From Lotus japonicus (Eukaryota > Streptophyta > Magnoliopsida > Fabales > Fabaceae): a DNA stretch of 64,000 nt. The stretch spans positions 47,817,127 through 47,881,126 of the forward strand of contig NC_080043.1 of assembly GCF_012489685.1 (NCBI RefSeq), read 5' to 3'. Shown one piece after another: positions 5,140 to 64,000 of the stretch. How positions within the stretch are numbered: position 1 is the first letter of the stretch; the number at the start of each line of letters is the position of its first letter. Position numbers and translations under genes: made by a program. The notes beneath the pieces were generated by a model. The model was not told where the DNA came from. It did not search any database and saw only the letters and a program-made list of their open reading frames with translations.

Positions 5140-5316
5140 GAGGAAATCTATGAGTTTCAAGTACATTCGTACTCCTTCGCTCGTTGAGCAGGTTATTGTT
5201 TGGCTATCTAAAGTTTAGCCGGAAACTATAAGTTTCCAAGTACTTCGGTACCTTTCGCTCGAGGAGCAGTTTATTGTTTGGCTATCTAAAGTTTAGCCGG
5301 GAACCATGAGTTCCAA
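5140..5316 (+). repeat. Hairpin chain in LTR A (two ~76-bp units)
   Basis: Two tandem units each carry small stem-loops in the same order: GGCTA/TAGCC, then GGAAAC/GTTTCC (unit 1) or GGGAAC/GTTCC (unit 2), AGTAC/GTACT or GTAC/GTAC, and GCTC/GAGC with a 3-base loop. Equivalent stems with different paired bases occur in D (33699-33774) and G (59778-59850). The chain lies between the second donor-like site and the start of the LTR ORF, as in the other LTRs. Confidence 0.6.
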
Positions 5317-5993
5317 AGTATCTTCTTCTTTTGATTAATTCATTTTGTCGCAGAATCGACGTTTGCCTTAGGGTAGGCTTTTTAGAGACAATAAGTTAGC
5401 TAGAACACGTGACGACGTGTCGAGTGAGGTCGGAGACGTTGTTTGGCTAATCACTTGCATTCATGCACTCATTTTGAGGTTAATACACGGCGGATTACCG
5501 GACCTCGGTGGATTCCAAAATGGTCATAAGACCCGGATTTCCATATTTAGGACACTACGGTGGTCCTCAGTAGCAGACGGAATGGCAGACCTACGGGTTC
5601 ACTGCTGATCTGACTACTTTTGTGTGGTGTAAGAGACGCCCGAGCGGAATGGTCCCACTTTGGCCGGTGTTAGGGCTGACTCGATGGTGTCCATCCTTCT
5701 TCCGGAATGCATTTTGTTACCCAGCATTGCATTTCATGCAACATACATGCTGACTTAGTTGCTGAGTGTGATTGGTACCTGTTTATCCTACTTGAGGCAT
5801 GCTAATTGTTATTATGATCTTCATATTCATTGTGATATATGCAACCCTAGGATTTTATCCCTAAACGTATAAGCCTGAGAGGCTAAATAATTATTACCCT
5901 ATATATCTGGTTTTATTATTTATATAATTCTTTGGAGTTGACCCTCGCGTCTTCTGTGTGTGTTTGGGCGGACTACGCCATTGTCAGTTGAGT

Positions 5994-33600: not shown

Positions 33601-33774
33601 GCTGTTGGAGCAGCGTTTGTTGATGTGCTGTTGGAGCAGCGTTTGTTGTTGTGCTGTTGGAGCAGCGTTGGTTGTTGTGCTGTTGGAGCAGCTATGTTGT
33701 GGGGCTATCCTGGGGATAAGTCCGGGGAACCGTTAGTTCCCGAGTATGTGATACTCTTGTGCTGTTGGAGCAGC
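33601..33774 (+). repeat. Hairpin array in LTR D (5' copy)
   Basis: GCTGTTGGAGCAGC occurs at 33601, 33627, 33653 and 33679, an exact 26-bp period, and again at 33761. Each can form a GCTG/CAGC stem. Between the fourth and fifth lie three more stems: CTATCC/GGATAAG, GGGAAC/GTTCCC-like and GAGTAT/ATACTC. The 3' LTR carries the same array at 42334-42507. Confidence 0.75.
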
Positions 33775-34445
33775 GATGTGTGTTGTGAAGTGTGTCTTTT
33801 GTCGCAGAATCGACTTTGCCTTAGGGTAAGACTTTAGAGACTTTAATTTACCTAGAACACGTGGCGACGTGTCGAGTGAGGACGGAGACGTTGTTTGACT
33901 AATCATCCTGCATTCATGCAACATTAATGGGGTATTAACACAGGACGTGCTCTGGACCTCGTCGGATTCCAAAATGGTCATAAGACCCGGATTTCCGTGA
34001 TAGAGCGTCTGTAGACGTCTCTTGTAGCAGACCGAAATGGCAGACCTACGGGTTACGGCTGATCTGACTACCGTTGTTGTTGGTGTAAGAGGCACGCGGG
34101 CCGAAATGGCACCACCGTGGCTGGTGAAGGGCTGATCCGTTGATGTCCATCCGTTCCGGATTGCATATTGGTTGACTGGGTTAACCTGCATACATATCAC
34201 GCAACATGCATACTGACTTAGTTGATGAGTGTGGTTGCTATTTGATAAACTTACTTGGAACATGCTAATTGTTATTATTGTCGTTATGATCTTGTGGAAC
34301 ATGCAACCCTAGGAATGATATCTCTAGTTATAAGCCTAAGTGGCTATCTATTAATTGTACCTATTGGGTTTATTATCTAAATAGTTCTTTAGAGTTGACC
34401 CTCGCGTCTTCTGTGTGTGTTTTGGCGGACAACGCCTTTTGTCAG

Positions 34446-34923
34446 ATGAATATTGCGGACTGGTACACCATGGTCCACCCTTCGGGGGGATTAGGTATGA
34501 GATGATCGATCAGGACGACCCCGGGTCGTGGGTGGTTGACCCCGCGAGCCACCGAGCGACGTATTCGGGGCGTATCATGGAGGATCACGTGGACAGTGGA
34601 GGACTCTTGAGGTCAGGAGTGTTGAGGCGATGCTCTATCAGCTTCAACTTGCCACCGGGCGTTCACTGCGGACCAGGATTCGGAGGAGCACCGCCGCCAC
34701 CGTCATCTTCAGAGGAGGAGGATCCCTCAGAGGAGATTCCAGTGGAAGTGCCTTCGGCAGGGTCTAGTGCACCCTCTGTTGCGATCATTGATGATCAGGG
34801 TTCGGGCCCTAAGCCCGTGAGTCCAGCATCGGAGCGCACTGCGGTTGCGAGGGGAGGACGGATAGGGTTGGTAGACTTGGTTGTCTGGATTCTGATTCAG
34901 ACGACGATCATGCTAGCACATAG
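34446..34923 (+). pseudogene. LTR-encoded ORF, 5' LTR copy of D (C-terminus frameshifted)
   Basis: Same gene as in the 3' LTR at 43179-43657. The domain with GIRYEMIDQDD, SWVVDPASHRATYSGR and LPPGVHCGPG is present. A short indel near 34881 (TTGTCTGG against TCGTTCTGG) throws the acidic tail out of frame, and the reading then runs to 34954. The break is absent from the 3' LTR, so it arose in one LTR around or after insertion. Upstream the frame is open to at least 34415 without an ATG. Confidence 0.6.
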
Positions 34924-35399
34924 TTTGAGTGTTGGTATGAGCTCCTCGAGTTAGGATTAGTGTAGGAGTAGAGTCTTAGCTCTGACAGTCTTACTTCATT
35001 TGTTACTTAGGGGACAGGGTAGATCCGCCTATAGCTTTTTGTGTGGTTTTCTTACGGGAATCACAGAGAGTTGGTTGGACTTAGGAAGTCTTATTTTCAG
35101 GCCATTGGGTCAGCTGATTCTCAGTTCTGAGGGATAGTGGTGCGGGCACTTCACCCTTTTCATTTGGTTTGTATATATTGCCTACGGGCGTTGCACTTTT
35201 CTTTCCGTCACTGGAGGTTACTCGTGACGAGGTTGCTACTACAGCGAGGGCTGTTTATATATTGTATATTAGTTCTAATTTTTGTTATTGTTGGGTTTTA
35301 TTTAATTCAGTCTTATCAAAAAAAAAATATTCACGTTTTTCCGCATTAAGTTTATTTTGGTTACTAAAGTGACGCCACCGAAATCGGGGTGTTACATTG

Positions 35400-44995: not shown

Positions 44996-45460
44996 TCACT
45001 CGGACCACTCTTCCTCTTTATCTTCATCTTCATCTACTTCTATGGGCTCCAGTCGATCAAAGAATCCCCTAAGCCTTTCTTGTTCCTTAGCCTTCTGCTC
45101 GATGGGAGCGGCCTCCGGAACTGGTACCAATGGTGCACTAGGCCCTGCCAATGGCTTCCCCAAAGCTATCTCCATATCCTCCAAATGATCTAGCTCCTCC
45201 TCAGATACTTGTGCAGAAGATGTCCTGGATCCCGCGTCCATAGGGAAATAGAAACGAGGGGGTGCAAAAGGCATCTTCACCCTCCCATGTTCCATTTCCT
45301 GAGTCTGGATGACTCCTCCTCTGCTGTCGCGTCCCGTGACCGTAGCCTTGCCGACATAAATACGACGCACCTGGCGCGAGGCGACCACCCAGGCATCGTC
45401 ATTGTCCTCATCATGGAGTTTCAGTGTCCAAGAATACACTGAACTCGTCGTCAGCACCAT
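44996..45460 (-). CDS. LTR-encoded ORF of gypsy E
   Basis: 154 residues from ATG 45460-45458 (MVLTTSSVYSWTLKLHDED), preceded by CCAG. Compared with the ORFs in F and D it keeps a Trp or Tyr, then D.D, AWVV, R..Y.G, D.RG, F.PP and a final P in the same order and spacing over about 65 residues. The C-terminal half is acidic (SEEELDHLEDMEIALG) and ends with EPIEVDEDEDKEEEWSE, again a hydrophobic core followed by acidic residues. Overall identity is low, but position within the LTR, order of motifs and acidic tail agree. It has survived open in an element whose gag-pol is riddled with stops, which is noteworthy. Function unknown. Confidence 0.5.
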   Translation of the reverse strand: MVLTTSSVYSWTLKLHDEDNDDAWVVASRQVRRIYVGKATVTGRDSRGGVIQTQEMEHGRVKMPFAPPRFYFPMDAGSRTSSAQVSEEELDHLEDMEIALGKPLAGPSAPLVPVPEAAPIEQKAKEQERLRGFFDRLEPIEVDEDEDKEEEWSE

Positions 45461-45692
45461 CTGGCCCCCTCCCAGAATAAACAAATAACAGACAATAGAG
45501 GGTTAGATCCCATACAATACTAGCAAGTAAAACAAGTAATCACATAATATTATCACATGAATAAATAGGGACTATACATATTCATATCTCAGTTAGCAAC
45601 CTAATAGTTTAGTTAGCCTAACGTCCTCACCATGACACAACCACCACATTCACCTTGGCCAATCACGATCATCCGCAGATGAACAATCTCGA

Positions 45693-50400: not shown

Positions 50401-51705
50401 AGGTGTACGAATTCAAGTAATCCGTAACGCCTGAATCTGGAAACACAACGGCCTTGTTAACACAATCCAAGGGAACATGATACTGTGCCAACAAATTCAT
50501 TCCCAAAATCACATCGAGCCCTGTAAGCCCTAAGCAGACGAGGTTCGCAAGAAACTTTCGATCCTTGTATATCAACGGACATTGCAAGCATGCCGTGCGT
50601 GTAACTAATCGATTGGCGGCAGGGGATATCACCACCAAATCGAAGGGTAGATCAGCAGTTAGCAATCCTAATCTCTTCACACACTCCTCAGCAATGAACG
50701 AGTGTGTAGCACCAGAATCAAATAAGACCATTAAGGAGTTTCCAACGATAGTACACGTACCCTGGATAAGGTCATCAGTCACTGCAGCTTGTTCCCCAGA
50801 TATTGCGAACACATGCCCTAGAGTAGAAGGTCGCCTTCCTCTAGCAGTATTCGGCACTGGCTCGGCCTTGGTAGCATTAGGACAGTTCCTCTCAATATGC
50901 CCTGGCTTTTGGAACTTCCAGCTCATAACTTCCTTTCTGCACTCATTTGCAAGTGCCCCTTCTGATTACACTTGAAACAGACAACCTCCTCCTTGGGAAT
51001 AGCTGCTCCACCCTTTCCAGTGAAAGGTACCTTGTCAGCAGGACGTTGATAAGGCTTCCTCAGCGGTGCCTTGCCTTTGTCAAACCTTCCAACTTGCCTC
51101 TGTCCATCGAACCTTCAGGTCTATCTCTGCCCAGAACGGATTGGTCCCCCACTTTTAGTTTGCTCCTTTGGCGATTCTTCATTGTCTCAACTTCACGAGC
51201 TTTCTCCACCAATTGTTGAAAAAATCTGATTCCCAACGGTTTCACAGACTCTTCTATTTCATTCCTCAGCCCCTTCAAGAACCGATTGCACAGATACGAT
51301 TCATCCACCTGCGCTTGAAAGAAGCGAAAATACTTCGAAAATGTCTCCAATCTGGCAGCATACTCTCCCACTGTCATTGCTACTTGTCTCAGGCCAAGGA
51401 ATTGCTTTTCCATATCTTCCCTAGAAGGCTCAGGGAAGTACTTCTCCATGAAATCTCTTTTGAAAGAGTCCCAAGTGATAGCTACATGGTTAGCAGTCAT
51501 CAGCTGTTTGGCACTCGTCCACCAGTACTCGGCATCGCCTTTCAGCATAAAGGTAGCCAAGTTCACCTTCGCCGCATCCGGAGTGTGGAGAGCCTAAAAT
51601 ATCTTCTCCATTTCCTGTATCCACAAATCAGCTTTCTCAGGCTCAACCTCGCCTTGGAACTTGGGTGGTCCATGGCGGTCGAAGTCAGCCAGATTTGTTT
51701 CGACG
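47430..51705 (-). pseudogene. Gag-pol ruin of gypsy E
   Basis: In minus-strand order: gag from FDRHGPPKFQGE (near 51690) with a TAG near 51595; degraded zinc knuckles near 50950-50880; protease DSGATHSF near 50720; reverse transcriptase with [13 protein letters not shown] near 49770; RNase H with YCDASHHG near 49315; integrase with VSDKDLRF and DGQTER; and a chromodomain-like end (LRNKELPMVKMFWN, ATWELESK) stopping at 47430. Breaks lie near 51060-50926, 50315, 50048, 49079, 48635-48520 and 47834. The integrase zinc-finger segment near 48640 is interrupted by a stop. It cannot make a working polyprotein. Confidence 0.85.
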
Positions 51706-53395
51706 TTTCCAATCTTTCTTCAGAAGGAAGTTTTGTCGTCTGACCATCACAGCAAAAAGTAGTTTTTCGGGACAGATTAACTTACACCGCTTTTGGGATT
51801 TTAGATATCATTTTTCCCAAATGTCTGAGATTTGTTTTGAGTTCTGGAATTCTGACGCCAGAATCTCTCTTAGAATTCATCGGTGAACGTGCTGCAAAAA
51901 TCGGAATCGCGAAAATTTCATTTTCCCGCGATTTCGCCTGCCTATAAATAGCTCAGAAGTTCAAAGATATCCTCATATTCTTTCTTCAAGGCCGCGAGCT
52001 TCAGGGGGAGGAGAGGAGAAGAATTTTTCGGCAAAACTCGACTGATCTTCGCGCAGTTCGTTCCTACTTCAAGGTACCGAGGTAACTAGCTTGATTCTTA
52101 CCTCTGATTACTATTTTTACTGCGTTTCTGTAGTCGTTTCTATGCTCAAAGTTTTGAGCTTTTTGTAAAACTGTCCGTTTTTCCTGATTTCTCTGTTGGG
52201 TTATCTTCCCTACGTGCCCAAGAGCCTAGAACCTCCGTTAGTATTCGCCGATATGGATCGAGTTGTCCAAGATCTGAAAAACTGTTTCAAAACCTTTTTT
52301 GCGCACATTTCGAAACTTTACTGTCGAAAATTCGAAATCTGACTTCGTGCCTTTAGGATTTGTTGTCACGGATGTCGTTAGGATCATTGCTGTCGAATTT
52401 GTTTTCCGAACTGATAACTTTGAGGGTTTGAGCTTTTATTTTGGACCAAAACGCCCCTGAACAGCCGTATTTCGATCCGATTGTCTGAAAATTGTTCCGA
52501 CAGTTTCTTTGCCTTAGTTTTACCCTAAAACTACCTTGTAAATAGATTTGATCGAAGAAAAAGAGCCGGAGCCCTTTCTCCCTTATGGCCGAGAGCTATA
52601 TCAATGGGGGGGGGAGTTTTTCGTTTTCGAAAACTTGTCTTTTCGTATCCGATTGTTGTATTCTGAAGCTTTAATGCTTTGTCTATCGTTTATGGGTTGT
52701 TTTGCGATCGAACTAATCGATTTTGTTTGGATTCTACTTTGTTTTTCTCCGAGGTTCAGTTGAAGGAACTTTGGGATCTTCAGAGCATTTGAGTGAAGGA
52801 ACCTTTGATTGCGAGGCTGGAACAGCTCGAGGTTAGGGCAACTTACTAATAGCTATGACTGCATGATAGGCGTCGATAAACTCGACTTATGTTTTGCTTG
52901 ATGTTGATTATGTTGATGAATTGATGTTATGGTGTTTTACATAACTTGTGATGTTGAGATGTTGATGAATTGTGCGTTTTGACGCGACTTCGGAGTGGAG
53001 ATTCATTGATCTGGTGATCTTTGATATTTCGGGTTGGATGAACAACCCTAGGCAAGTCCAAATGTGGGGTTTGAGACTTAGCCATTTGTTCGTATCCTTA
53101 GACTTTCCCCGGGAATTGCTTTTGTTGGGTTTTTGGAAAAATTTAGAATGAATAGAGTTTCGAAAACTAAAGACTTGGGAAACTTAGACTTTGAGAAATA
53201 AATTCATAACTTGACTAATTTGAATTGAAACAATTTTTATTAACGTTTAAGCATAGGAGAACTGAAGGGGAAAATATTTACGAAAGATGGGGAAAAGTCG
53301 ACTTCTGTTGTGGGTTTTGGTTTTGGGGAAAGCCACTGAAGTGAGCTACGGTGATGATTGAAAGTCACCGAAAACTTTAAGTACTCTTGTTGTTG

Positions 53396-53599
53396 GGGTT
53401 GTGTTGTATTGACCGACACTAAACCCTTGTTTACTCTTGTTGTTGGAGTTGTGTTGTATTGACCGACACTCAGTGCTCTTGTTGTTGGGGTTGTGTTGTA
53501 TTGACCGACACTACACCCTTGGGTTCTATTGTGGTGGGAGTTGTGTTTTATTGACCGACACTAAACTCCGAGTTGTGTTGTATTGACCGACACTAACTC
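53396..53599 (+). repeat. Hairpin array 1 in LTR F (five units)
   Basis: Each unit has an inner GTGTTG/CGACAC stem around an invariant TATTGAC loop (one unit has GTGTTT). Outer arms vary together: GGGTT/AACCC (unit 1), GGAGTT/AACTCC (unit 4) and GAGTT/AACTC (unit 5); unit 3 has GGGT/ACCC and unit 2 pairs poorly. Units start near 53396, 53445, 53488, 53538 and 53570. Confidence 0.75.
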
Positions 53600-53685
53600 T
53601 TGGGTTTGTTTTGAGATTGGGTTTGAGCTAAACGCTTGTGTGGTGAGGACGATTCGATGTTTGGCTAACCATATTGCATCAATCG

Positions 53686-53923
53686 GGTGAATAACGGGAA
53701 TGGTTTACCTGTGCATCTTTTGGTGAATAACGGGAATGGTTCACCATTGCATCATTTGGTGAATAACGGGAATGGTTCACCAATGCATTAATGATGAATA
53801 ACGGGAATGGTTCATCATACGGTGAATTACGGGAATGGTTCACCAAGGATGAATAACGGGAATGGTTCATCCATAGTGAAGAACGGGAATGCTTCACTTG
53901 TGGCGAACGGGAATGCGTCACAA
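53686..53923 (+). repeat. Hairpin array 2 in LTR F (eight units, constant loop)
   Basis: Eight units share the loop core AACGGGAATG (one has TACGGGAATG). Stem arms: GGTGAA/TTTACC (53686), GGTGAA/TTCACC (53722, 53758, 53821), ATGATGAA/TTCATCAT (53791), GGATGAA/TTCATCC (53847), AGTGAAG/CTTCACT (53875) and TTGTGGCG/CGTCACAA (53898). Both arms change together while the loop stays fixed. Confidence 0.85.
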
Positions 53924-54165
53924 TCCGGATCATATTGATTGCATTTCACGCATACATTCATTCTGACTGGGATTGTGTGCTGTTTGATTTATTGAAGCAT
54001 TGTTAGAGCCATAACATGCTAGGATTATCTATATGTTTATATAACAACATATATATCTATACCCCATATCACATGTTGAGTGTATATCTACTTTATTTCG
54101 TGAGTTGACCCTAGCGCCTTGGCTTTGGTTTCATGTTTGTGTTTGGGCGGTCGGCCTGCTGCCAG

Positions 54166-54831
54166 ATGTCGATGGCCGACTGGTTTTCGATGGTCTCTCC
54201 CTCGGGGGGGATCAGGTATGAGTTGGTGGATCGAGATGCCCCCACCGCCTGGGTGATCGATGTGGCTGGTCACCGAGCGACGTACAGGGGAAGGGTCAAG
54301 GAGGACCGGACTGATGAGCGTGGACGTCTGACGAGAGGAGTGCTACGACGTATGGAGCTGAGCTTTGACTTGCCGCCCCCAGTTCACTGTGGACCAGGTT
54401 CTGGTCGAGGACCACTTGCACCATCTCCCGCTTCATCTTCTGATGACGAGGACCCAGCGGAGATCGAACCTGTTGTTGTTGCACCTGTTGCGCCACCTAC
54501 TGCTACTGCCATTGATCCTACCGACGTGGCGTCGTCCTCTAGGCTTGTGCGGCCGAAGAGGGAGTCTGTTGTGCCATCTGCCTCACGTCTCTTTTCCTTT
54601 GCTTCACCACTCGGCTACCGTGTGGACCCCTTGCTTAGGGTGGTGGAGGAGGATGTTCTTACAGGAGAGGTGGATGTTGAGACCGGCTCGACTAGGACGG
54701 TGCGCAGGACAGTTAAGAGGGAGGTCGTGGACTTGGACACCGAGATGATTACGGTGGATTCCGACTATGACTCCGAGAGCATTGGGGACAGCTACTCGCC
54801 GAGCAGCGACGAGGAGGAGGAGGAGCTATGA
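54166..54831 (+). CDS. LTR-encoded conserved ORF of gypsy F
   Basis: 221 residues from ATG 54166, preceded by GCCAG; another ATG in frame lies at 54133 and a third at 54172 (MADWFSMVSPSGG). The conserved domain spans about residues 15-85: GIRYELVDRDAP, WVIDVAGHRATYRGR, GVLRRMELSFDLPP and VHCGPG. An acidic Ser/Asp linker, a Pro/Ala/Val stretch and a basic patch (RTVRRTVKRE) follow. It ends in VVDLDTEMITVDSDYDSE and a Glu-rich end, with two hydrophobic-plus-acidic segments like SUMO-interaction motifs. This is the most complete copy. It is open over 666 bp of an LTR, and domain positions are shared with D and E. Possible roles (regulator of transcription or silencing, or a partner of the hairpin arrays) are guesses only. 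Confidence 0.65.
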   Translation: MSMADWFSMVSPSGGIRYELVDRDAPTAWVIDVAGHRATYRGRVKEDRTDERGRLTRGVLRRMELSFDLPPPVHCGPGSGRGPLAPSPASSSDDEDPAEIEPVVVAPVAPPTATAIDPTDVASSSRLVRPKRESVVPSASRLFSFASPLGYRVDPLLRVVEEDVLTGEVDVETGSTRTVRRTVKREVVDLDTEMITVDSDYDSESIGDSYSPSSDEEEEEL

Positions 54832-55298
54832 GCTGGGAGGGTAGGTTAGGCTAGCGTCATTTTTTGTGTAGAGCTCTGATCGTCTTACTTTGGGACAGGG
54901 TAGGTTCCTGATGTGTGGCTTTTTGTGTGGTTCTTTTGATGAGGAATCACAGAGAGTCTGTCGGGTTATAGAGGTCTTTTGTTCCGGCCATTTTTGGGTG
55001 CCGACTTTCTCTTGGATGACTGTATTTTGATACTTTTGAGTACATTACTGGTGTTGTACATATTTGCCTATGGGCATACTACTTTGGAGTCACTGCGGGT
55101 TCGCGTGACGTGGAGTGCAGCTGAGGCTGTACATGTGTATATATTGTATATCGGTTAGTTTAGTTGATAGGTTATGTTTTTATTTCTTTATCTCTTTTAA
55201 TTAAAGGAATCAATCGGAAAAAAAAAATTACCTGTTTTCCGCGTAAAGTTTATTTTTGGTTAATAAAAGTGACACCTGGAAATCGGGGTGTTACATTG

Positions 55299-55310
55299 TG
55301 GTATCAGAGC
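55299..55310 (+). promoter_or_regulatory. Primer binding site of gypsy F
   Basis: TGGTATCAGAGC three bases after the LTR end, as in D. The 65-bp leader identical to D follows at 55334-55398; nothing else is visible before gag at 55504. Confidence 0.9.
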
Positions 55311-55503
55311 TTAGTCGAGTCTTTTGGGAGTCTTTGGGGAATAGGTCTTCTGTGCTAGGTTGTGTGACTCTGCAAAGAGTGAAAATTGATTGTCTGCAGA
55401 ACGATTTTTTGTTCTAATTACTTTCATTGTTACTTAATCATATGGAATAGTTTTGGTGCTATCATACGATTAGGACTAACAGTTTTCTTGGGGGTAACAG
55501 ACG

Positions 55504-56510
55504 ATGGTGAATACGAATCAGCTAGCAGAGATGATGGCCTCTATGGCCCAAGCAATGACTAATCAAGCGAATGACAATGCTTTGAGGCGTGCTACGGAGG
55601 AAGCGCGTGATCAACACCAGCATCAGAGGGAGGCGACTCTGGATCAGAACAAAGTGTTGAATGATTTCAGGAGACAGGATCCACCTATGTTTTCGGGAGG
55701 TACTGACCCGGACAAAGCGGATCTCTGGATTGAAGAAATAGAGAAGAAATTTGGTGTGTTACAGACTGCTGAGGGAGCCAAGGTGGGAATGGCAACCTAT
55801 CTGCTGTTGGGTGATGCTGAGTACTGGTGGAGGGGAGCCAGAGGGACAATGGAAGCCAATCATGTGGAGGTGAACTGGAATTCTTTTCCAACTGCTTTTC
55901 TCGAGAAGTATTTTCCTGACAGTGCTTGTGATGAGCGTGAATCACAGTTTCTGACTCTTAAACAAGGGAGCATGACCATTCCGGAATATGCTGCTAAGTT
56001 GGAGTCTCTAGCAAAATATTTTCGATTTTTCCGTGACCAAGTTGATGAGCCCTACATGTGCAAGCGCTTTGAAAGGGGATTGAGAGCTGATATAGAGGAC
56101 TTAGTGAGACCGTTGGGGATCATGAGATTCCAGGCATTGGTTGAGAAAGCAACTGAGGTGGAGTTGATGAAGAATCGAAGATTGAACAGGGTTGGAACAG
56201 GAGGACCAGTGAGGTCGACACCACAGAACTTTCAAGGAAGGGGAAGGTTTCAGGCGAGGAAGCCATATCAACGTCCTACGGGGAGAGGGTTTACCCCGGG
56301 ATCTTACAAGCCGATGGCTGCTGCTGCTACTTCTGGAGGGTCGGGAAGCCATACCCAAAACCGTGAGGTGACTTGTTTCCGATGTGGAGGGGCCGGACAC
56401 TATGCAAATAATTGCACGAAGCCACCAAGATGCTACAACTGCAATAAATCTGGGCATCTGGCTATGGATTGCAAGGCACCAAAGGCTGAACCGTCTGTGA
56501 ATGCTGTTAG
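55504..56510 (+). pseudogene. Gag of gypsy F, interrupted by G
   Basis: Starts [18 protein letters not shown] like D. The gag domain is present ([34 protein letters not shown]), then an Arg/Gly-rich region and two CCHC knuckles (CFRCGGAGHYANNC and CYNCNKSGHLAMDC). The frame is open until solo LTR G begins at 56511; the open reading beyond (to 56595) is LTR sequence. The protein continues at 60935. Confidence 0.9.
56506..56510 (+). repeat. Target-site copy left of G (GTTAG)
   Basis: GTTAG before the LTR and again at 60935-60939 after it: a perfect duplication, proving G is a single inserted LTR. Confidence 0.95.
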
Positions 56511-58931
56511 TGTAAGGCCCAAGTTTTTCAGTTTATACCAAGTGAATAAATTCTTATTCACCAGTAGGTTTGATGCATGGCGAAGGGAAACCTGAACAAG
56601 AGTTTAGTAAATGAAATAAATGTATGAAGGAGAAAGTTCAGGAAAAGTCTAAGGATTGTATCGAAGTCGATTTAAGTTATAGCACGACTAATATTCGCAT
56701 TTAAAACCTAGGACAAGAACCTTAGGAAACAAAACTATGTTCCAGCTTTGGAACACTATAGGAATATAATTTCCAACAAACTTCCAGCTTTGGAACACTG
56801 TAGGAATTTAGTCCAAAAATCTTTAGAGAAATATTAGAACTTCTCTTTTTCCATATATCACAATCATTTCGAGGCGAAACTCTAGGATCTACGAACGTCC
56901 GATTCCAATCATCGGAAGTTTGCCGAAACCGAATCCCTGGTTTTTCAAAACCCTAGAATCAACCGTCAATGAAGACTTTTTCTATTCAGAGCTTCAAATG
57001 AAGATTCTACACACGTGCACCCATTTCTCTTGATGATTTCAATCTTTCTTCAGAAGGAAGTTTTCCATTCCGACATTCGATGCAAAAAGTAACTTATCGG
57101 GTAAAATAGTTTTACACCGACTTTGCATTAGTCACCTAAAATATAAGGAGACCTCATTTTAGTTTTGGAATTCTTTCGCCAAAACCTATCTTAGAATTCA
57201 TGGAGAATGAAGCCGGAAAAATCAGATTCGCGAAACTTTCATTTTACCGCGTTTTGCCAACCTTTATATATAGCCAAGAAATAAGAAAATATCACAAATT
57301 TCCACCATTTCTCTCCAAAACCTGCGAATTTGCTAAGAGGAAGAAGGAAGAAGAGCTTTTGTTCATTTCTTGCTTGATCTTCGATCAATCAGTTGCTACT
57401 TCAAGGCTTCGAGGTATAGTCGCTAATCCTTACCTCTGATCGCTTTTTCCATAGCTTTTCTGTAGAGTTTTCTGAGCGGATAGTTTATGGGTTTTTGCAA
57501 AACTATCCTGAATCTTTCATTTCTGATTCTAAACCTCTTCCTTATGCGCCCAAGATCACTTCTGCCGGACTAGATTTTCCGTTATGTCGCCGGAATTCCG
57601 CCGGAATCAATTTGAGCCTAAAATACCCATTTTTGGAGTTTTTGGTGTAAAGCTTCAACCTTTAGGCTGAAAACTATCGCCTTAGCTTAGTGCTAGTAGG
57701 ATTAGTTGTCATAAACGTCGTTGGTGACGTCCCTGCAAAATTTTATTTTTGGGATTTCAGTTTTGAAAATCCTAAGTTAAAGATCATGACCAAAATACCC
57801 CTGTGACAGTTTTTTATCCGATAATTTTTCCGAGTTCAGAATACCCTTAGTTACGGCTTATGAAAGCATAGGAACCAAGTTTGATCGAAGAAAAATCGAG
57901 CCCCACAATTACCAAAAGTGGCCGAGCCCTATAGGGGAGGAGGAGGAAATTTTCCTTTTCCGAAAACTTGTCTTTCGCTCTAGATTATCGTACCTTAGAG
58001 TATAGATTACTTCGAGTAACCTTTGTAAGTATCGATAACTTAGTTTTCGATAGATTCTGATAGTATTTCTGTGGTTTTGCTCTAAAGGTGATTTTGAGGA
58101 ATTCCCAGAGGAGCAAGCCTTTGATTGTGAACGAGTGTTAGGAGATCGTCCTGGAGAATCTACAGGTGAGGGCTTCTCACTGAATCTCTAGTTAATGCTT
58201 AGGGTCGATGTTTCGACATTGTTTACTGTTTATGCACTGGAATTGTGTGTGATTGGAAAATGTTTTCTGCGGCTTCGGCTGACAATGTAGATGATGCATC
58301 TACTGAATGTTTTTGATGAGTGAATGACATGCTAAGTGCTAATTGGGTAATTTAGGATGTGTGGTGCATGCCTTATATGCTAGGTTCTATGAGGTTATTG
58401 CTTAAGATATTGACATATGACATGTTGATTGATTATGATGAGTTAATTCTGCTTTTGCACTATAATCTGAGTTTCTGAACGGTGAGAAAAGCGGGCAGGT
58501 CATGCCGATTTTATTTTGAGAGTTTTGAGAAAGCTTGAAAGGACGAATGAGATTCGGGCCTTGTTGTGGTGTTGTATGGATCGAGACATTCTCTGGAGTC
58601 ATTTGGGGATTAGGAGATCCCGAGAACTTATAGGATTCGCGATAAGACTAAAAGGATAATTAATTTGTAAAGAAAACTCATAAGACATTAAACAACCTCT
58701 AAATCTTTAAGTAATGGTAATAATCTCGGAAGGAAGCTTTGGATGCAAATCATAGATTTGGAAAACGAGAAGTGTCGTCGGATCCCAGCATTGAGAAAGT
58801 TGAGGGGCTTCGAGTATGTAGATGTTGTGGTGCTGTTGGAGCAGCGTTTGTTGTTGTGCTGTTAGAGCAGCTATTGTGGTTGTGCTGTTGGAGCAGCTAT
58901 GTTGTTGGGTGTATCTTCGACTTTGCGGCGC

Positions 58932-59775
58932 GAATCCGTATGTCCAAACCCGACGGGTTGGGCCGATTCGGCAATAATTTTCGACACGCGCGAATCCGTA
59001 TATTCAATCCGATGGATTGGATCGATTCGGCGGTAGTCACTCAGGCACGCGTGAGTCCGTATGTTCAATCAGAGGGATTGGATCGATTCAGCGATTGCCA
59101 TTTTACCTCGCGTGAATCCGTATGTTCAATCCGAGGGATTGGATCGATTCAGCGACAACTTTTCGACACGCGCGAATCCGTATATTCAATCCGATGGATT
59201 GGATCGATTCGGCGGTAGTCACTCAGGCACGCGTGAGTCCGTATGTTCAATCAGAGGGATTGGATCGATTCAGCGATTGCCATTTTACCTCGCGTGAATC
59301 CGTATGTTCAATCCGAGGGATTGGATCGATTCAGCGACAACTTTTCGACACGCGCGAATCCGTATATTCAATCCGATGGATTGGATCGATTCGGCGGTAG
59401 TCACTCAGGCACGCGTGAGTCCGTATGTTCAATCAGAGGGATTGGATCGATTCAGCGATTGCCATTTTAACTCGCGTGAATCCGTATGTTCAATCCGAGG
59501 GATTGGATCGATTCAGCGATAACCCTTCGACTCGCGCGGATCCGTATGTTCAATCCGATTGGATTGGATCGATTCGGCAATAGTCATTGGACACGCGCAA
59601 TGTCCGTATGTTCGACTCTTTTGAGTGAACCGACTTGGCGTTGTCATTTGTTGCGTGTGCGAGTCCGTATGTTCAACCCAAGGGGTTGGATCGACTCGAC
59701 ATGCCTAATTGTGGGAGTTGCGTGTGTGAGTCCGTATGTTCAACCCAAGGGGTTGGATCGACTTGACATGCCTAA
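58932..59775 (+). repeat. Fourteen-unit hairpin minisatellite in LTR G
   Basis: Units of 60-61 bp. Ten of them (after the first) are arranged in three-unit 182-bp higher-order repeats starting at 58992, 59174 and 59356. Each unit has an outer GAATC/GATTC stem, an internal loop CCGTATGTT opposite GATC, and an inner CAATCC/GGATTG stem. In the late units (59661, 59728) these become GAGTC/GACTC and CAACCC/GGGTTG. One unit near 59601 has GTC/GAC with ACTC/GAGT. The array contains short chance open readings in several frames that are not genes. Confidence 0.85.
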
Positions 59776-60289
59776 TTGTTGGGCTATCCTGGGGATAAGT
59801 CCGGGAAACCGGTAGTTTCCGAGTATGTGATACTCTTTGCTTGTTGAGCAGTTGTGACCATCGGTTTGAGATGAGTCGGATGATCCGGAGATCATCATGA
59901 GTTACTATGTTGATGTGAAGAAGTGTCTTTTGTCGCAGAATCGACTTTACCTTAGGGTAAGCTTTTAGAGACTTTAATTTACCTAGAACACGTGGCGACG
60001 TGTCGAGTGAGAGTCGGAGACGTTGTTTGACTAATCATCCTGCATTCATGCATACTGATTTAGTTGTCGAGTGTGATTGTTATTTGTTAATCCTATTTGG
60101 AACATGTTAATTGTTATTATTGCTGTTAAGTTCATTATGGAAAATGCAACCCTAGGATGTTATCCCTAGCTATAAGCCTAAGTGGCTATTCAATTATCTA
60201 TATCTATTGGTGCTATTATTTATGTAATTCTTTGGAGTTGACCCTCGCGTCTTCTGTGTGTGCTTTGGCGGACAAACGCCCTTTGTCAG

Positions 60290-60450
60290 ATGTCTTTGGC
60301 GGACTGGTTCACGACGGTTCACCCTTCGGGGGAAACTAGAGTTGGGATGCTGGAACAGGAGCCCATCGCGATAGCGAGCGGAGGACGGATGGTGTACATA
60401 GACTAGGTCGTTCTGGATTTCGAATTCGGACGACGATCATGCCAGCATGT
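60290..60450 (+). pseudogene. Remnant of the LTR ORF in G
   Basis: ATG 60290 begins MSLADWFTTVHPSGE, matching the start in F. The central domain is deleted. The sequence jumps to a part matching the C-terminus of the D copy (GGRMVYID, then TAG), and the acidic tail follows out of frame. LTR H (minus strand, near 62782) has the same deletion. Confidence 0.65.
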
Positions 60451-60934
60451 AGGATTGAGTGTTAGTGTGAGCTCCTCGAGATGGGATTAGTGTAGGAGTA
60501 GAGTCTTAGCTCTGAACATTATTTGTTTCATTCGGGACAGGGTAGTTTCCCACCTATAGCTTTTTGTGTGGTTTCTTTACGGGAATCACAGAGAGTTGGT
60601 TGGACTTAGGAGGTCTTGTTTCAGGCCGATGGGCCAGCTTATTCTCAGTTTTGAGGGATAGTGTTGCGGACACTTACCTTTAGATTTGGTTTGTACATTT
60701 TGCCTTCGGGCGCTACACTTTTCTTTCCGTCACTGGAGGTTACTCGTGACGAGGTTGTTACTTACAGCGGGGGCTGTTTATATATTGTATATTAGCTCTA
60801 TTACTTTTCGCTTTTGGGTTTTAATTAATTCAGTCTTGTCTTAGTTATTATCGGAAAAAAAAATATTTCACGTTTTTCCGCATTAAGTTTACTTTTGGTT
60901 ACTAAAGTGACGCCACCGAAATCGGGGTGTTACA

Positions 60935-62140
60935 GTTAGTGGGAAGCGCCCAGTGGCGAAGGGAAGAGTGTATACAATGGATGGTGAAGAGACTGAAGGA
61001 GCGCATGGATTGATCCGAGGAGAATGTGAAATTGACGGTAATCTTCTAACTGTACTCTTTGATTCTGGTGCAACTCATTCATTTGTCTCTAAGGATTGCG
61101 TATCAAGACTGCATCTGCCTATTACTACTTTGAGTTTTGATCTTATGGTAACTACACCTGCTAGGACTCTAATTGCTAATGCCGCATGCATGCACTGTTC
61201 AGTAGTATATAGAGATAGAACTTTTCATGCCAACCTAGTATGTCTACTCCTTAAGAACCTAGATGTAATCCTAGGGATGGATTGGTTATCCCATTACCAT
61301 TGTCTTTTGGACTGTAGTCGAAAGAAAGTGGTGTTCCCAGACTCGGATCTTTTCGAGTATCTTTCTATTAACCACATTAGCGCATCGTTGAGCGAGGGCA
61401 CTCAGAGGTACATTTCATTGCTAAGTCTGGAGGGGAAGAAGGAATCGGATATTCATGGTGTTCCGGTGATTCGAGATTTTGTGGATGTTTTTCCTGGAGA
61501 TGTACCTGGACTACCGCCTGTACGCGATGTAGAGTTTGTGATCGACATTGTACCTGGAACAGGACCGATTTCGATTGCACCTTACCGTATGGCACCTGCG
61601 GAGTTAGTAGAGTTGAAATCTCAGTTGGAGGATCTTTCAGCAAAAGGATTCATTCGACCAAGTGTTTCACCGTGGGGAGCGCCAGTGCTTTTAGTTAAGA
61701 AGAAAGACGGAAGGTCGAGATTATGTGTGGATTATCGACAACTGAACAAGGCGACGATCAAGAACCGATACCCGTTGCCGAGGATAGATGATTTGATGGA
61801 TTAATTACGAGGGGCTGTCGTATTTTCCAAGATAGACTTGAAGTCAGGCTACCATCAGATCAGAGTGAAGGCTGAGGATATACCAAAGACTGCATTCAGG
61901 ACACGTTACGGACACTACGAGTACCTAGTGATGCCGTTTGGAGTGACAAATGCACCTGTTGTTTTCATGGATTACATGAACCGCATCTTTCATGAGTTCT
62001 TAGATCGGTTTGTGGTGGTGTTTATTGATGACATACTGATATATTCGAAGGACGCGAAGGAACATGAAGGACATTTGCGTCAAGTTTTACAAGTGTTGAG
62101 GGAGAAAAAGCTGTATGCGAACCCTTCCAAGTGTGAATTC
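60935..62140 (+). pseudogene. Gag end, protease and reverse transcriptase of gypsy F
   Basis: Continues the gag frame after G ([15 protein letters not shown]). Protease DSGATHSF lies near 61063 and the reverse transcriptase part follows: VDYRQLNK near 61729, KSGYHQIR near 61840 and FIDDILIY near 62021. A TAA at 61802-61804 stands where D has CAA (Gln), a single C-to-T change. LTR H cuts the gene after NPSKCEF at 62140. Integrase and chromodomain are beyond the window or lost. Confidence 0.9.
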
Positions 62141-64000
62141 TGTGACACCCCGATTTCGGTGGCGTCACTTTAGTAACCAAAAGTAAACTTAATGCGGAAA
62201 AACGTGAAATATTTTTTTTTCGATAATAACTAAGACAAGACTGAATTAAATAAAACCCAAAAGCGAAAAGTAATAGAGCTAATATACAATATATAAACAG
62301 CCCCCGCTGTAAGTAACAACTTCGTCACGAGTAACCTCCAGTGACGGAAAGAAAAGTGTAGCGCCCGAAGGCAAAATGTACAAACCAAATCTAAAGGTAA
62401 GTGTCCGCAACACTATCCCTCAAAACTGAGAATAAGCTGGCCCATCGGCCTGAAACAAGACCTCCTAAGTCCAACCAACTCTCTGTGATTCCCGTAAAGA
62501 AACCACACAAAAAGCTATAGGTGGGAAACTACCCTGTCCCGAATGAAACAAATAATGTTCAGAGCTAAGACTCTACTCCTACACTAATCCCATCTCGAGG
62601 AGCTCACACTAACACTCAATCCTACATGCTGGCATGATCGTCGTCCGAATTCGAAATCCAGAACGACCTAGTCTATGTACACCATCCGTCCTCCGCTCGC
62701 TATCGCGATGGGCTCCTGTTCCAGCATCCCAACTCTAGTTTCCCCCGAAGGGTGAACCGTCGTGAACCAGTCCGCCAAAGACATCTGACAAAGGGCGTTT
62801 GTCCGCCAAAGCACACACAGAAGACGCGAGGGTCAACTCCAAAGAATTACATAAATAATAGCACCAATAGATATAGATAAGTGAATAGCCACTTAGGCTT
62901 ATAGCTAGGGATAACATCCTAGGGTTGCATTTTCCATAATGAACTTAACAGCAATAATAACAATTAACATGTTCCAAATAGGATTAACAAATAGCAACCA
63001 CACTCATCAACTAAGTCAGTATGCATGTTGCGTGATATGTATGCAGGTTAACCCAGTCAACCAATATGCAATCCGGAACGGATGGACATCAACGGATCAG
63101 CCCTTCACCAGCCACGGTGGTGCCATTTCGGCCCGCGTGCCTCTTACACCAACAACAACGGTAGTCAGATCAGCCGTAACCCGTAGGTCTGCCATTTCGG
63201 TCTGCTACAAGAGACGTCTACAGACGCTCTATCACGGAAATCCGGGTCTTATGACCATTTTGGAATCCGATGAGGTCCAGAGTACGTCCTGTGTTAATAC
63301 CTCATTAATGTTGCATGTATGCAAAATGATTAGTCAAACAACGTCTCCGACCTCACTCGACACGTCGCCACGTGTTCTAGGGAAGTTAAAGTCTCTAAAA
63401 GCTTACCCTAAGGTAAAGTCGATTCTGCGACCAAAAGACACACTTCATAACGACACATAGCTGCTCCAACAGCACCACCACACACACAAGCTGCTCCAAC
63501 AGCACAATAACACATGCTGCTCCAACAGCACAACAATAAACGCTGCTCCAACAGCACAACATCAAACGCTGCTCCAACAGCACAACAACGACATACTCAA
63601 CACTTGGATCCGACGACACTCCTCGTTTTCCAAAATTAAGATTTCACTTCCAATGCCTTCCTTCGAGGTTGTTATCATTACTTAAAGATTTAGAGGTTAT
63701 TTAAGGTCTTATGAGTTTTCTTTATAAAATAGATTCCATTTTGTCTTATCGCAAGTCTTATACATTTGCAGGATCTCCCAATCCCAAGTCGCTTCCAGAG
63801 GATGTCTCGATCCACTAAACAAAATAAAGGCCCGAACCTCGTTCGTCCTATCAAACTTTCTCAAAACTCTCAAAATAAAATCGGCATGACCTGCCCGCTA
63901 TTCTCACCATTCAGAATCTCAGATTTCCAGTGTAAAGCATATTTAAATCATCACAATCAACAACATGTCATATATCAAGAAATCTCAACATTAACACTTA
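62141..64000 (-). repeat. Partial LTR H, minus strand
   Basis: On the minus strand it ends AATCGGGGTGTCACA at 62141 and runs off the window. The part 62141 to about 62990 follows G, including the deletion in the LTR ORF (ATG at 62784-62782). Beyond about 62990 it follows D, including five GCTG/CAGC hairpins (63460, 63490, 63516, 63542, 63568). It is therefore a mosaic. Whether it is a solo LTR or part of a full element cannot be seen. Confidence 0.85.
63460..63581 (-). repeat. D-type hairpin array in LTR H
   Basis: Five copies of GCTGCTCCAACAGC (plus strand) at 26-30 bp intervals: the reverse complement of the D units, with one more tandem unit than D. Confidence 0.75.

Follow-up and report, generated by a model that had tools for sequence, protein, structure and literature searches.

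A tandem hairpin array with a nearly constant loop and covarying stems in a long terminal repeat of a Lotus japonicus retrotransposon

The long terminal repeat that we call LTR F holds a row of short inverted repeats, the arms of which differ from unit to unit while the segment between them hardly changes. This locus raises two questions: have the repeats been maintained by selection as a structure, and, if so, is that structure RNA or DNA and what may read it? The initial annotation of this DNA took compensatory change among neighbouring repeats as the mark of a selected secondary structure, in RNA or in extruded DNA. We analyzed the 64,000-nucleotide stretch of Lotus japonicus DNA that contains the repeats (the window) and copies of the repeats elsewhere in the genome. 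As described below, the array is very probably a selected array of hairpins in sense-strand RNA.

Hairpin arrays in the window

Eight stem-loops stand in tandem at 53684-53924 of the window on the + strand. Unit 1 (53684-53711) reads GGTGAAT-AACGGGAATG-GTTTACC, with one G.U pair in the stem (GGTGAA/TTTACC) and a T.G closing pair. Units 2 (53720-53747; TGGTGAAT-AACGGGAATG-GTTCACCA), 3 (53756-53783; TTGGTGAAT-AACGGGAATG-GTTCACCAA) and 4 (53791-53818; ATGATGAAT-AACGGGAATG-GTTCATCAT) follow. Unit 5 (53819-53846) is GGTGAAT-TACGGGAATG-GTTCACC, and unit 6 (53846-53873) is GGATGAAT-AACGGGAATG-GTTCATCC. The last two units, 7 (53873-53900; AGTGAAG-AACGGGAATG-CTTCACT) and 8 (53897-53924; TTGTGGCG-AACGGGAATG-CGTCACAA), have a G-C closing pair, and unit 8 has one G.U pair (GGCG/CGTC). 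The core-to-core spacings are 36, 36, 35, 28, 27, 27 and 24. Thus, the eight units of the initial annotation and the five pairs of arms that it quoted are all present in the sequence. Its description of the loop as essentially constant holds: AACGGGAATG is exact in seven of the eight units and unit 5 has one change. The switch of the closing pair that it noted is seen as T.G in six units and G-C in two. We considered a coding repeat and rejected it, because there are stops in all three frames and not all spacings are multiples of three.

Between the units of the window, the loop diverges by 2.5 % (7/280 sites) and each arm by 30.4 % (68/224 sites). Standard pairs occupy 96.9 % of the 64 cells (8 pairs x 8 units), and two-sided change is seen at 5 of the 8 pairs. 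When the letters of the array were shuffled, the paired share and the covariation score were each reached in 0 of 500 shuffles, and five two-sided pairs in 3 of 500. When 18 parsimony substitutions were placed randomly on the tree of the units, the observed pairing was reached in 0 of 3,000 trials. These results bear out the claim that the two arms change together. Folding of the region had been proposed as a check. When pairs may span no more than 40 nt, each of the eight hairpins forms, and the inner six pairs have a probability of at least 0.84; the global folding energy is modest (z -2.95 for the + strand and -2.31 for the - strand). In the unrestricted fold, units 2 and 3 are able to cross-pair. 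The array was not prominent when folding energy was scanned in 1,065 windows of 120 nt (both strands; 30 shuffles per window).

The density of hairpins, counted in stem bases, exceeds that of 60 shuffles in the zones of LTR F (13 versus 6.1 ± 1.9) and LTR G (21 versus 13.5 ± 2.8). Because a gag zone of the related element B is also in excess (17 versus 9.2), this density is not specific. LTRs A (6 versus 8.6), B (11 versus 7.5) and H (10 versus 7.0) have no excess over 60 shuffles; therefore, the element group overall does not need such an array.

Several other searches were made. The idea that the stems of neighbouring units avoid each other was rejected, because 3,968 of 5,000 random unit orders cross-pair at least as weakly as the real order. 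The complement of the loop, CATTCCCGTT, is absent from the + strand of the window with one mismatch allowed, and thus a loop-loop partner was not found there. An Rfam search of 51400-60950 gave nothing above the gathering score; the sole match was SNORD96 at 51734-51860 (23.6 bits versus a gathering score of 43). No match was found in plasmids, and none in viral contigs by DNA or by protein.

A second array lies in LTR G at 58926-59771 (+ strand). It has 14 units (9 distinct) with a two-part nested stem, and its sequence is unrelated to that of the F array. Paired cells amount to 93.6 % and two-sided change occurs at 6 of 19 pairs; shuffles reached the former in 0 of 500 cases and the latter in 17 of 500, and the tree-based null gave 0 of 3,000. 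The number of standard pair types is not above that of shuffles (387/500). The pattern of this array has 2,102 matches in the genome. At the pair of its first and next-to-last bases, A-T, G-C and G.T were seen and A.C was not, as judged by eye in the 100 matches listed.

Other LTRs of the window contain further features. A non-coding segment is strongly conserved among LTRs A, B and H (33905-34215, 5450-5740 and 63025-63335 (-)); this segment has a predicted hairpin around GGTCATAAGACC, whose outer pair reads T-A in A and C-G in B. LTRs B, G and A have in common a single hairpin (33724-33756, 59800-59835 and 5220-5236) with matched changes, GGGAAC/GTTCCC versus GGAAAC/GTTTCC. Tandem repeats of 26 bp in LTRs B, G and H (33601-33779, 58832-58910 and 63450-63581 (-)) have a weak invariant hairpin, GCTGT-TGGA-GCAGC.

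Copies of the array in the genome

In the genome (553.7 Mb), AACGGGAATGNTTCA has 9,804 exact matches (4,766 + 5,038) and its reversed control has 0. Our sample comprises 89 loci in 69 insertion groups with 157 distinct units, all on C1 and C2. Nineteen loci are arrays from the first 100 AACGGGAATGNTTCA places listed. The other 70 were reached via a flank anchor that has 434 matches at no more than three mismatches; 30 of these loci were taken first and then 40 of the other 70 listed places. Places no more than 15 kb apart on one strand were merged into one insertion group, as were five places that had been fetched twice. Six to eight units per locus are present in 75 of the 89 loci. Among 597 core-like places, 17 were dropped because fewer than five of the eight positions pair; two of them (L069 and L070, one insertion group) look like true broken units, and the other 15 fall outside arrays. 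Separately, L012, L017, L040-L042, L047, L048, L075 and L081 contain a conserved motif that resembles AGCGGAAATG and has no hairpin; its distance to the closest array unit is mostly 139 nt.

A first set of 43 distinct units was drawn from the window and the 19 arrays. Of the 41 distinct units in these arrays, 36 entered the set; three repeats of window units and two hairpin-less places were left out. In this set, 93.9 % of cells are paired and all eight pairs show two-sided change, a result reached in 0 of 500 shuffles.

A variant found in at least three insertion groups must have gone through transposition. In contrast, variants confined to one insertion group mostly arose after insertion. 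Therefore, we compared shared units (in at least three groups, n = 33), for which changes were counted on a minimum spanning tree, with private units (in one group, n = 107), each of which was compared with its nearest shared unit. For the inner six pairs, a cut chosen post hoc after the outer pairs had proved loose, shared units have 10 both-arm changes, 3 one-arm changes that keep pairing and 0 that break it, with 2 loop changes. Private units have 1, 17 and 21, respectively, with 37 loop changes; most of their stem changes are one-arm, and the loop has decayed at roughly the rate of the arms. The two classes differ in both-arm changes versus the rest (Fisher, 1.9e-7) and in keeping versus breaking (6.0e-4). 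The ratio of loop to arm changes is 2:23 in shared and 37:40 in private units (Fisher, 2.7e-4). Thus, genomic copies decay regardless of structure, and transposing lineages keep the pairing and the loop. The initial annotation had named one-arm changes as frequent as paired changes in other copies as the observation that would speak against it; the shared inner pairs present the opposite picture, and its reading of compensatory change as selected secondary structure holds for these pairs.

Over all eight pairs, the counts are 12 both-arm, 5 keeping and 11 breaking changes in shared units and 3, 26 and 57 in private units (one of the 57 is a two-sided break), with Fisher values of 1.6e-6 for both-arm versus the rest and 0.015 for keeping versus breaking. 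The outermost two pairs of the hairpin are loose, and there the marks of a selected structure are poorly expressed. When shared units were redefined as those in at least two groups, their inner pairs gave 10, 5 and 1 with 8 loop changes, and those of private units 0, 17 and 21 with 36 loop changes (Fisher, 3.3e-7 for both-arm and 0.020 for loop versus arm changes). Under this definition, keeping versus breaking over all eight pairs has a Fisher value of 0.066.

These counts bear on a rival idea, in which template switching from one arm to the other while DNA is synthesized matched the arms as a side effect and the structure was not selected. Template switching is documented, in the available part of PMC8794818, as a source of perfect stems and multibase compensatory changes, and some changes in the array are double transversions (A-T to C-G and T.G to G-C). 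However, private units, which are copied as DNA, have one both-arm change versus 38 other changes at inner pairs. Moreover, template switching predicts neither a constant loop nor G.U pairs kept without A.C. We consider this explanation very improbable. Arm copying during reverse transcription could, on the other hand, supply changes that are later sorted by selection. The comparison of shared with private variants in one genome separates selected RNA structure from mutational arm copying, and it can be applied to any repeat family.

A palindrome is able to fold in either strand, and so the repeats might act as DNA, in the form of cruciforms or of a protein-binding array for silencing or anti-silencing. 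A G.U pair in the sense RNA corresponds to an A.C mismatch in the opposite strand. At the inner pairs of shared units, 20 G.U and 0 A.C were found among 198 cells (the T.G closing pair accounts for 14 of the G.U cells), and all eight pairs have 23 G.U versus 4 A.C. In the two window arrays, G.U occurs in 13 pair-columns and A.C in 3 (p 0.375 and 0.065; neither array is significant alone). Because G.U is kept without A.C, sense RNA is the likely selected form. Furthermore, the arms of a DNA site would not be free to change. An action as DNA is extremely improbable in our estimation. Accordingly, of the two media that the initial annotation had offered, RNA is favoured and extruded DNA is not.

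The host element and candidate readers

LTR F spans 51700-55295 (+ strand). Its right end is GTGTTACA, and its left end appears to be cut near 51.7 kb. The right end is followed by TGGTATCAGAGC at 55299-55310 (+ strand), which we take to be the primer binding site (PBS). The gag ORF of element F (55504-56595, + strand) has two matches to CCHC zinc knuckles, and its tail enters solo LTR G (56511-60934), which is inserted in element F with GTTAG on both sides. Element F thus has an LTR end, a PBS and gag; farther downstream it is interrupted by LTR G and LTR H. The related element B has two 4,047-bp LTRs at 99.6 %, and gag, protease, reverse transcriptase, RNase H and integrase in one ORF; CCHC knuckles are present in the gag of both F and B. 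By its LTR pair and domain order, element B is a Ty3/gypsy LTR retrotransposon. From its sequence, the clade may be Tekay/Del chromovirus. None of the 13 Pfam matches (E 0.001) is to a chromodomain family. A spliced leader was also considered for the element, on consensus-like sites judged by eye.

The array has a TATA box on its upstream side and an LTR-encoded ORF on its downstream side, and it is approximately 1.4 kb upstream of the PBS. The TATA box (TATAAATAG, 51943-51951, + strand) is approximately 1.74 kb upstream of the array and may serve as a promoter; similar boxes occur in LTRs A, B and G. Because a second A+T-rich box is present near 54036, transcription of LTR F could start at either box. 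Whichever TATA box is used, every LTR position enters the genomic RNA at one or both of its ends. Therefore, the array should be part of the RNA that undergoes packaging and reverse transcription. Upstream of the array, a tandem repeat at 53396-53596 (+ strand) has five copies with GTGTTG-TATTGAC-CGACAC, copy 4 being altered. Across 56 units from 30 loci, its hairpin hardly changes, and a stem so uniform gives no covariation evidence.

The LTR ORF (54133-54831, + strand) has a probable start at 54166 (MSMADWF). Six of its seven protein matches are annotated Lotus japonicus homologues, the best annotated relatives have 77-88 % identity, and a distant counterpart occurs in a second element type. 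ORFs without a Pfam family and with annotated Lotus relatives were seen inside LTRs of several elements (54133-54831, 34415-34954 and 44996-45484 (-)).

In one alternative, the array is a response element, much like the export elements of retroviral LTRs: an accessory or host RNA-binding protein would recognize it and export, stabilize or translate the unspliced RNA of the element, and the LTR ORF would then be the first candidate for the binder. The conservation and distant counterpart of this ORF fit such a role, as does its position: 27 of the 30 anchored loci have the array 320-454 nt upstream of a conserved sequence that precedes the ORF. However, the ORF belongs to no Pfam family and is also present in LTRs that have different arrays or none; thus, it does not travel with the F loop. 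We regard a response element as unlikely. Alternatively, the hairpins might serve the translation or stability of a long leader, by shunting or by blocking ribosomes or decay enzymes, with a host factor reading the loop. Should transcription start from the first TATA box, the array would be in the 5' leader, 1.7 kb downstream of the box and before the LTR ORF and gag. Structured leaders also have a precedent in RNA export of a plant pararetrovirus, as far as described in the accessible part of PMC12786077. A mechanical function alone, however, needs no constant loop, and the loop is the most constant part of the array. A leader role is, in our judgement, quite improbable.

We return to the selected RNA array and its possible reader. 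Because the loop is constant and the stem sequence is free, the loop is most likely the part that is read, and the stem would present it. Each unit would present one 10-nt loop, AACGGGAAUG, on a short stem of any sequence that remains paired. The constancy of the loop suggests that some reader binds it. Repetition of the unit suggests avidity, and the six to eight loops in a row may act as a single multivalent docking site. Since selection is seen in transposing lineages, the array is expected in genomic RNA and Gag has zinc knuckles, Gag is the natural candidate: the element's own Gag, encoded next door, would use the array to select and condense genomic RNA. Given a selected RNA array, we put binding by Gag at an even chance, judging from sequence features; the LTR ORF product is a second candidate binder. 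The complete proposal, a multivalent stem-loop platform in the genomic RNA of a Ty3-type element that is most likely bound by Gag, is tentative, and our confidence in it is slightly less than even.

A wider proposal is more doubtful. The array may represent a new control element of retroelements: a self-renewing, LTR-encoded tandem platform of RNA hairpins with identical loops. Its stems would be free to diverge, whereas a dedicated reader encoded by the element, either Gag or the product of the LTR ORF, would hold the loop constant; in related elements, unrelated hairpin arrays would take its place, as in LTR G. If this is true, the platform is a natural counterpart of engineered MS2-type arrays. 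A constant loop on a varying stem, in thousands of genomic copies, also provides a short RNA ligand for direct binding tests with Gag, the LTR protein and host factors.

Comparison with known systems

The array is probably a structured cis-acting RNA of a retroelement, a kind already known. To our knowledge, little is known about the recognition of self-RNA by plant LTR retrotransposons. Among open-access titles and abstracts (subscription papers were outside this scope), we found none that describes an LTR with a tandem array of covarying hairpins. The retroviral packaging signal Psi resembles the predicted RNA of the F array in that adjacent stem-loops with exposed G-rich loops stand in the genomic RNA leader of an LTR element that has a CCHC Gag. 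However, Psi consists of a few unlike hairpins, whereas the F array, a putative binding platform, repeats one loop six to eight times in a regular tandem inside the LTR, well before the PBS. Complex retroviruses possess LTR-located export elements, namely the Rex, Rem and Rec response elements. Like the F array, these are structured LTR RNAs beside an LTR-linked accessory reading frame. In contrast to the F array, in which one hairpin is repeated and an export role is putative, they are large branched structures.

Among plant elements, BARE is a Ty1-type LTR retrotransposon. Its packaging is attributed to conserved RNA signals, and, unlike in F, no tandem hairpin array is described in the available part of the source (PMC3735527). 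Large plant LTR elements have tandem repeats in non-coding regions, as F does (PMC6317226). These repeats belong to large non-chromovirus elements, and the accessible portion of that paper describes no base-pairing constraint on them; in contrast, the F unit is a hairpin with a covarying stem. Single-stranded RNA viruses have dispersed packaging signals, in which many stem-loops share a common loop motif, are variable elsewhere and are read by the coat protein, according to the part of PMC6281560 available. The viral signals are scattered and degenerate in that account, whereas the F array is tandem, is placed in a non-coding zone of the LTR and has a nearly fixed 10-nt loop.
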